NCBI RefSeq assembly: GCF_900172265.1
Contig: NZ_FWFK01000003.1
Coordinates: 434,001 to 498,000, forward strand
Origin: Roseivivax jejudonensis
GTDB taxonomy: Bacteria; Pseudomonadota; Alphaproteobacteria; Rhodobacterales; Rhodobacteraceae
Length of the DNA stretch: 64,000 bases
Reading direction: 5' to 3'
Shown here: piece after piece, positions 4,911-48,822 of the stretch
How positions within the stretch are numbered: position 1 is the stretch's first letter
Layout of the letters: each line of letters begins with the position of its first letter
Program-made: the position numbers and the translations under genes
Notes under the pieces: model-generated
What the model was told of the DNA's origin: nothing
Database searches by the model: none
What the model saw: the letters and a program-made list of their open reading frames with translations, nothing else

Positions 4911-4939
4911 TTGACACAAACCGTGAACGTCAGTAGAAC
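4911..4939 (+). promoter_or_regulatory. lexA promoter with overlapping LexA (SOS) operator
   Basis: TTGACA (4911-4916) and TAGAAC (4934-4939) are separated by exactly 17 bases. The alphaproteobacterial LexA box GAAC-N7-GAAC occupies 4925-4939, covering the spacer and the -10 element. The box ends 32 bases before the lexA ATG. This is the expected autorepression arrangement. Confidence 0.9.
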
Positions 4940-43552: not shown

Positions 43553-44005
43553 ATGGCCGGCGACAGCGAACTCATCAAGCTCTACTCGCAGCGCATCCTC
43601 GCGCTGGCGGCCGACATTCCCCATACCGCGCGGCTCGACGCGCCTGACGCGACGGTCAAGAAGCGCTCGCCACTCTGCGGATCGACCGTAACGGTCGACC
43701 TGCGGCTTGCCGACGGGCGGGTCAGCGCGTACGGGCAAGATGTGAAGGCCTGCGCACTCGGCCAGGCGGCCGCCGCCGTTGTCGGCCATAACATTGTCGG
43801 ACGCACGCCCGACGAGATCGCCGCGGCCCGCGATGCGCTGCGCGGGATGCTGAAATCCGACGGCCCCACCCCTCCGGCCCCCTTCGACGACCTGGAGGTT
43901 CTTCGTCCGGCGCAGGAGTACAAGAACCGCCATGCCTCGATCCTGCTCGCGCTCGACGCCGCGACCGAGGCGGCGTCCGAGGCCGAGGCACGGCAGAGCG
44001 CCTGA
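43553..44005 (+). CDS. IscU/NifU N-terminal-like iron-sulfur scaffold family protein
   Basis: A 150-residue protein with the NifU-N fold. Two of the three cluster-ligand cysteines are present ([10 protein letters not shown] and [13 protein letters not shown]). The third is absent: the expected position reads [13 protein letters not shown]. This two-cysteine form is common in Rhodobacterales and may not hold a cluster as IscU does. AGAGGAAG precedes the ATG at 43553. No iscS or suf genes are adjacent. It is divergent from hisI. Confidence 0.85.
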
Positions 44006-44020
44006 CGCGCGGGTACCCCG

Positions 44021-44061
44021 CAAAAAAACCGCCGCGCTTCGCGGGACACGAAGGCGGCGGT
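44021..44061 (-). terminator. intrinsic terminator of the SOS microprotein transcript
   Basis: On the minus strand ACCGCCGC pairs with GCGGCGGT, with an inner CTTCG/CGAAG stem, then seven T (44028-44022). It lies about 130 bases past the stop of the 36-residue gene and 16 bases past the convergent scaffold gene. It defines the 3' end of a roughly 0.3-kb transcript. Confidence 0.85.
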
Positions 44062-44189
44062 CAGGAGCGTCTCGAGGCAGTTCCGGCAGCAGGGTCCAGC
44101 GGGGGACAATCCGAAGAGACCGAGCCGGGCGCGATAGGGCACGCGCGGCAATTACCGGGCACAAGCGACGCAGGCAGAAACGAAGAACG

Positions 44190-44300
44190 TCAGACGTGAA
44201 GCGCGGCGACAAGCATGACGCCAAGCGCCGCAGCGCCGAGCGCATCCTGCGCGACCATGGCGTCGGGGTGGCGCAGTGCGATCTTGATCCGGTCGAACAT
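44190..44300 (-). CDS. 36-residue hydrophobic microprotein with its own SOS box
   Basis: A very short gene with an excellent ribosome binding site: GGAGG ends 5 bases before the ATG at 44300. The protein has an amphipathic, positively charged front (MFDRIKIALRHPDAMVAQDA) and a hydrophobic tail LGAAALGVMLVAALHV, consistent with insertion in or on the inner membrane. A perfect LexA box lies 58 bases upstream and a strong terminator downstream, so it forms its own SOS-inducible unit. I recall similar short proteins in Rhodobacteraceae but no described function. By analogy with Caulobacter SidA (29 residues, LexA-controlled, inhibits division) it may be a division inhibitor; this is inference. 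Confidence 0.75.
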   Translation of the reverse strand: MFDRIKIALRHPDAMVAQDALGAAALGVMLVAALHV

Positions 44301-44357
44301 GGGAACCTCCACCATCTGGGTTGCCACTTTGTTCTCACATCGAGGCGAGTCGGTAAA

Positions 44358-44372
44358 GAACTTTTTAAGAAC
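44358..44372 (-). promoter_or_regulatory. LexA (SOS) box upstream of the microprotein gene
   Basis: GAAC-N7-GAAC (44358-44361 and 44369-44372), identical in form to the lexA operator. Two further GAAC words follow at 44379 and 44389 with 10-base spacing, giving four in register. It lies 58 bases upstream of the 36-residue gene and 39 bases past the recG stop. Promoter elements overlapping it are weak. Confidence 0.85.
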
Positions 44373-44410
44373 ATTCGCGAACACTGCGGAACAGCGCGCG
44401 CCGAGCGGCT

Positions 44411-48822
<4,412 letters not shown>

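Follow-up and report, generated by a model that had tools for sequence, protein, structure and literature searches.

A candidate LexA-controlled membrane microprotein gene with an attached structured RNA behind recG in the Rhodobacteraceae

Small SOS proteins and C-rich-loop RNAs in other bacteria

The SOS division inhibitor SulA is a soluble protein that inhibits FtsZ, and TisB, a LexA-controlled peptide of 29 residues, composes together with IstR-1 a type I toxin-antitoxin system of E. coli. SgrS/SgrT, a dual-function RNA, joins on a short transcript the reading frame of a small protein to a conserved RNA part. Division is inhibited after DNA damage by small membrane proteins such as YneA of Bacillus, SosA of Staphylococcus and DidA of Caulobacter, all three of which are compared here by description; YneA is paired with FtsW in the title of one publication (PMC13396833), and DidA is described as SOS-independent (PMC4211646). 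Closest to the locus presented below is SidA of Caulobacter crescentus, described as a LexA-controlled, 29-residue protein of the inner membrane that acts on FtsW (PMC4211646), and as the cause of filamentation in a Caulobacter lexA mutant (PMC12700426). Among small RNAs, sX13 and alpha-r7 are described as carrying three stem-loops with C-rich loops; repression by sX13 of mRNAs that carry G-rich motifs close to the start depends on these loops, and alpha-r7 is reported to resemble it (PMC3771888).

The locus considered here was encountered in a stretch of 64,000 nucleotides from Roseivivax jejudonensis, hereafter the window, and consists of a microprotein gene behind recG with a LexA-type box in front of it and a structured RNA domain after it. 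With SidA, the microprotein shares its very small size, its alphaproteobacterial origin and LexA control (judged at the level of sequence, from the exact box that 67 of 68 relatives carry), as well as a single membrane helix, which is predicted here from a hydrophobic stretch and from an AlphaFold2 model with helices at residues 2-10 and 12-35 and low confidence over the first ten residues. It differs from SidA, as the latter is described, in its length of 36-42 residues and in the conserved structured RNA on its putative transcript. SulA resembles the microprotein in the role proposed for the latter, that of an SOS division inhibitor, but is soluble, whereas the microprotein is predicted to be of a membrane type, and DidA differs in being SOS-independent, whereas the microprotein gene has a LexA-type box. 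The RNA domain recalls sX13 and alpha-r7 in its hairpins, usually three, with C-rich loops; it differs from them in that its hairpins are enclosed by a long closing helix and that a protein frame and a LexA-type box are attached. The combination of frame and conserved RNA on a short transcript is likewise that of SgrS/SgrT, from which the locus differs in its SOS-type control, its membrane-type protein and a function of the RNA that is so far putative.

How division is arrested after DNA damage in the Rhodobacteraceae looks open. The SulA family (Pfam PF03846) was found in none of 41 relatives (25 family genomes and 16 from the class), with a positive E. coli control, and the open-access literature searched yielded no division-arrest gene for the Rhodobacteraceae. 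Within the same open-access literature, no description of the locus was found: a Dinoroseobacter shibae LexA-site study (PMC6473078) holds no mention of recG, and a word search of a Ruegeria pomeroyi proteogenomics paper returned neither recG nor LexA. The locus, found in most genera of the Rhodobacteraceae, is put forward as a candidate for damage-induced division arrest.

The frame behind recG and its control region

The initial annotation of this DNA had proposed a 36-residue frame, charged in front and hydrophobic behind, that is preceded by a GGAGG ribosome binding site and a LexA box and followed by a seven-T terminator. Each of these elements is present in the window (Table 1), where the frame translates as MFDRIKIALRHPDAMVAQDALGAAALGVMLVAALHV, a short basic helix followed, by prediction, by a hydrophobic one. 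The exact box stands 57 bases upstream of the ATG, and the terminator, rather than adjoining the stop codon, starts approximately 130 nt past it. The length of 36 residues is also a local property: counted from the ATG of the frame, the protein measures 36-38 residues in nine genomes of the window's genus and 39-42 residues in the remaining 29 of the 30 sequences from which a protein profile, A1, was built, most of these ending in LHLPGL(I).

Table 1. Positions of the microprotein gene and neighboring elements within the window.
Feature	Positions	Strand	Remarks
Microprotein gene, 36 residues	44190..44300	-	frame 44300..44190, stop included; short basic helix, then single hydrophobic helix (predicted)
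LexA-type box GTTCTTAAAAAGTTC	44358..44372	-	GTTC-N7-GTTC read on the gene's strand
Additional GTTC half-site	44379..44382	-	10 nt 5' of the box; present in many, not all, relatives
TTTACC, -35-like placement	44352..44357	-	abuts the box; putative promoter element
TGAGAAC, about -10 position	44331..44337	-	conserved; putative role
Ribosome binding site GGAGG	44306..44310	-	ATG 5 nt further on
Structured RNA domain, divergent copy	44067..44177	-	3' of the stop codon; closing helix and two hairpins
Intrinsic terminator	44022..44062	-	GC hairpin and seven T
recG	44411..46498	-	same-strand upstream neighbor; RecG and helicase Pfam domains; end fixed, start approximate

That the frame is translated is suggested by the pattern of substitution. 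Among 419 pairs of relatives with 65-97% DNA identity, differences at first, second and third codon positions amount to 0.268, 0.171 and 0.476, respectively, and the greatest variability thus falls on third positions, as expected of a translated frame. The window protein has no match in Pfam or NCBIfam. When the 30 A1 members were searched, the best values obtained were E 0.092 in Pfam (one member), E 0.0063 in NCBIfam (YgaH, three members) and E 0.0089 in PHROGs (one member), all of which were taken as chance matches among short hydrophobic sequences.

The frame is widely distributed within the window's family. A search with the single sequence at a loose threshold (E 1) returned matches in 195 of 295 Rhodobacteraceae genomes, one per genus, and profile A1 matched 258 of the same 295 at E 0.1, leaving 37 without a match. 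At the level of the order, where the sampled genomes all belong to the window's family, 142 of 149 matched. At the level of the class, 17 of 289 genomes did so; the four strong matches are four family genomes, and the other 13, weak and partial (E 0.006 or worse, all under 25 bits on rescoring), were excluded. Removal of these 13 and of 20 duplicates from 101 loci left the set of 68 distinct loci used throughout. In the window's genus, box, frame and T run are kept in all nine genomes, the weakest frame match having an E of 0.07. By these counts, the gene is far more general than the window shows, and the conservation of frame and box that the initial annotation had named as its check is found in relatives. 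Gene finders easily miss such short frames, so existing descriptions of the SOS regulon in this major marine family may lack a gene that is among the most constant in it.

Comparison of the 68 loci also brings out the architecture around the frame. The exact GTTC-N7-GTTC box, lacking in L065 only, begins 71-120 nt before the start of the profile match. TTTAC abuts it in 60 of the 67 boxed relatives (TTGACG takes this place in G001), and the motif T(G/A)(A/G)GAACA follows 10-45 nt further downstream in 66 of the 67. A T run of at least five behind a GC-rich stretch is present in 67 of 68 relatives, and recG lies immediately upstream in 30 of 30. A scan of positions 43600-44900 on both strands, which covered the sigma-70 consensus only, returned no sigma-70 promoter. 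Taken together, sequence comparison supports the existence of a gene with a LexA-type control site that encodes a small membrane-type protein. The element at the -10 position, TGAGAAC, possibly contains a further LexA half-site (GAAC); with the additional GTTC upstream of the box, it may form an extended operator of several LexA half-sites.

Two further scans used sequence patterns. Firstly, 20 of the 37 profile-negative genomes and six known positives were scanned with the pattern GTTCNNNNAAAGTTCTT, which was found in five of the six positives and in four of the 20. Two of these four, G001 and G058 (loci L105 and L108), hold behind recG a very divergent frame that keeps box, terminator and the same architecture, so that 258 of 295 is a lower bound; the matches in G014 and G017 were judged to be chance. 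In the other 33 profile-negative genomes the gene is either absent or further diverged, two states that look alike in these data. Secondly, a promoter-only scan with the pattern GTTCTNANAAAGTTCTTTAC across 84,980 genomes, each from a different species, returned at least 118 loci; as the pattern was derived from known members, the result speaks to the specificity of the promoter to the locus, not to the frequency of the gene. Among the 118 matches listed, the frame scores above 5 bits in 114 and above 25 bits in 108, and 113 have the end of recG directly upstream in the same orientation. Two loci with neither frame nor recG (L132, Muribaculaceae; L138, Butyrivibrio) were taken as chance, and in two others, which belong to the window's family (L196, L230), recG is present and the frame missing, the available DNA reaching no further than 77 and 22 nt into the region of the box. 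Three of the 114 frame-bearing loci show no recG, two of them (L148, L184) with DNA that starts too late and the third (L189) unexplained.

Several minor features of the locus may be recorded here. Unusually long spacings occur in L116 (Frigidibacter albus) and L055, with recG-to-box 545 nt and stop-to-T-run 358 nt. A divergent branch, with box and recG in place, is represented by L160 (Paracoccus saliphilus) and by L170 and L228 (Rhodobacter), whose forms of the protein score weakly, at 13.9, 24.1 and 26.8 bits. In the window, a convergent neighboring frame of 150 residues at 43553-44005, without a Pfam match at E 0.001, faces the gene; behind many relatives it stands beside hisI.

The RNA between stop codon and terminator

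The initial annotation was incomplete in one respect, for it made no mention of the conserved structured RNA that follows the frame. As the stems of this RNA vary in sequence and length, plain alignment folding was unusable, and single folds and covariance models were employed instead. Single folds of the region from stop codon to terminator in 67 of the 68 loci (L013, with no run of five T, was left out) gave a closing helix with three hairpins in 51, two in 14 and four in two. The folding energy by itself departs only moderately from expectation: once the terminator is left out, the z-scores average -2.2, with 33 of 67 loci below -2. More distinctive are the loops, in which CUGUCCC and CUGCCU persist while the stem sequences differ, with compensatory change. 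At the level of DNA, CTGCCT is present in 66, CTGTCCC in 52 and TGCCTC in 27 of the 67 RNA regions, against rates of 0.084, 0.03 and 0.075 in shuffled sequences. Folds and loop motifs together therefore present the features of a C-rich-loop sRNA, namely several hairpins exposing conserved C-rich loops.

Covariance models support the fold across relatives. A first model, R1, built from 13 sequences, recovers, at E 1, 62 of the 68, its own sources included, and misses L001, L017, L018, L055, L066 and L079. In the 62 matched loci, 84.0% of cells are paired, compared with 35.8-42.0% when the alignment is slid, and the covariation score, at 0.432 against at most 0.093 in the control, was reached by none of 500 shuffles. 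A second model, R2, built from these 62 loci, matched at E 0.1 57 of 80 promoter-scan loci tried, all on the correct strand and 183-310 nt behind the box, and all eight of the other loci of the window's genus. The 65 loci so obtained show 84.9% of cells paired versus 34.5-41.3% slid and a score of 0.466 versus at most 0.097. Alignments to R1 and R2 are fitted to the model and lean towards it, as single folds do not, and the test sets of the two models share some genomes.

Genome-wide searches place the RNA at the same locus. Under strict filters, R2 gave 13 matches in 41 family genomes, a number indicating that it misses many true copies; 12 lie directly behind the frame and one, in G026, lies away from it and was taken as chance. 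Across 289 class genomes R1 gave three matches, two in the four family members and one in G673 (E 0.0025), the last of which falls in coding-looking DNA with no box and was also taken as chance. The RNA of the window itself is matched by neither R1 nor R2. It nevertheless forms a helix with two hairpins, holds the motifs CUGCCUGCG, UUGUCCCC and CUGCCUC, and folds with a z-score of -0.8 without and -3.55 with the terminator; it is a divergent member of the RNA fold.

No Rfam family reached its gathering score in nine loci searched. Lax scans gave sub-threshold scores only, among them those of alpha-r7 (ar7; 16 of 60 bits, E 0.7) and sX13 (20.2 of 50 bits, E 0.11), which fell far under their gathering scores. 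The RNA half would represent a structured RNA family that is new, and the joining of such an RNA to an SOS membrane protein would likewise be a new arrangement. Pairing of the RNA to the start region of its own frame was not favored in 67 loci, the mean duplex energy being -28.3 kcal/mol for cognate and -28.9 kcal/mol for non-cognate pairs (mean rank 0.55). Similarly, GGGACAGGCAG, which is complementary to loop 3, was counted 52 times across 21 genomes versus 88 times for the reversed control and is thus not enriched, and no target is named; in G679, G680 and G683, one match each just behind the frame lies in the RNA itself. The positions of box and terminator suggest that frame and RNA would be carried by one transcript, and on comparative grounds the locus would then be a dual-function RNA, with a translated frame and a conserved RNA structure on a single transcript.

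Protein conservation and possible roles

Conservation of the protein falls on particular residues. No substitution of D19 or G22 occurs in any of 144 rows, L26 is found in 140 and L34 in 143 of the 144, and P37 in 141 of 142; the rows comprise 146 less two removed for length or an X, and come from two partly overlapping collections with duplicates between them kept. Across residues 16-38, the periodicity of conservation peaks at 100 degrees (permutation p 0.012), with 120 degrees nearly equal, and 100 degrees is the period of an alpha helix conserved on one face. The predicted transmembrane stretch, residues 20-34, is free of charged residues, and the basic residues that precede it suggest a topology with the N-terminus inside and the C-terminus outside.

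The reading that we favor, tentatively and at somewhat short of an even chance, is that a unit repressed by LexA yields both a checkpoint protein of the membrane, acting like SidA, and a C-rich-loop RNA. According to this model, the locus would be a single transcription unit of approximately 0.3 kb behind recG, repressed by LexA, from which DNA damage would, through LexA cleavage, release one RNA that begins at a promoter directly 3' of the box and ends at the terminator. The front of this RNA would be translated into an inner-membrane protein of 36-42 residues, with a short basic helix inside, a single transmembrane helix and the C-terminus outside, whose conserved helix face (D19, G22, A/S25, L26, L30, L34, P37) would pack against a membrane partner. 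That partner would most likely belong to the late division machinery, such that division waits for repair in the manner of SidA, and the exposed C-rich loops in the back half of the RNA would most likely either base-pair with G-rich sites in mRNAs or determine how long the transcript lasts. A partner in the divisome is the best guess because SidA, itself LexA-controlled, of 29 residues and in the inner membrane, acts on FtsW, because a Caulobacter lexA mutant filaments through SidA, and because SulA was found in none of 41 relatives; by analogy, a division role would be a good guess. A bolder version, in which one LexA-controlled transcript would serve the whole family as an SOS dual-function RNA, yielding both a membrane protein to arrest the divisome and, within the same molecule, a C-rich-loop sRNA for silencing G-rich mRNAs, appears rather doubtful; if true, the DNA-damage checkpoint of the Rhodobacteraceae would act at two levels at once.

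The specificity of the conserved helix face would also suit a different partner. It is conceivable, if rather doubtful, that the microprotein binds and adjusts, during the SOS response, some other inner-membrane protein, such as a transporter, protease or sensor kinase, rather than the divisome. LexA of R. capsulatus is described as acting on the CckA kinase and the gene transfer agent (cited within PMC6473078), and targets of LexA other than repair genes therefore exist in the Rhodobacteraceae; no conserved membrane-protein gene was, however, identified next to the microprotein gene.

Unlikely, in our estimation, is a locus whose main product is the RNA, an SOS-induced sRNA with C-rich loops to which the small frame would be secondary. 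The strong compensatory change and the constancy of the loops agree with such an assignment, as do the frequencies of CTGCCT and CTGTCCC set against their shuffled rates and the three C-rich stem-loops described for sX13 and alpha-r7 (PMC3771888). Yet the frame is itself under selection and is more widely recognizable than the RNA, the search with the loop-3 complement in 21 genomes gave no targets, and in the window it is the RNA that has diverged and not the protein.

About as unlikely is a product that, as an SOS-induced hydrophobic peptide like TisB, would depolarize the inner membrane and slow growth, while the folded 3' RNA would govern how much of it is made or how long it persists. The two agree in size class, in LexA-type control and in having a hydrophobic helix, and a folded RNA would fit the structured mRNA of a toxin. 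However, the transmembrane stretch is uncharged, and conservation follows one helix face on which D19 and G22 never change, a pattern that points to a specific partner; no antisense promoter for an antitoxin was seen in the scan of both strands for the sigma-70 consensus only (43600-44900); and the fixed place behind recG is unlike that of mobile toxin-antitoxin units.

A chance box beside an open frame with no function, which would be compatible with the number of boxes in the window, is exceedingly improbable, contradicted as it is by relatives in which frame, box, RNA fold and place are all conserved. Taken alone, the box is at chance level in the window: two exact boxes were observed versus 1.56 expected, and two or more arose in 53 of 100 shuffles. 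Nor is the exact box rare in the whole genome, where GTTC-N7-GTTC occurs 112 times versus 34 times for the reversed control, and the microprotein locus stands above chance because box and frame are conserved in relatives. The second box of the window, at 4925-4939, stands upstream of a gene whose Pfam domains are those of LexA DNA binding and of an S24 peptidase. The initial annotation had given the microprotein gene's box the same form as the lexA operator, which holds for the motif but not for its direction, since the box reads GAAC-N7-GAAC on the coding strand of the LexA gene and, in the opposite orientation, GTTC-N7-GTTC on that of the microprotein gene.
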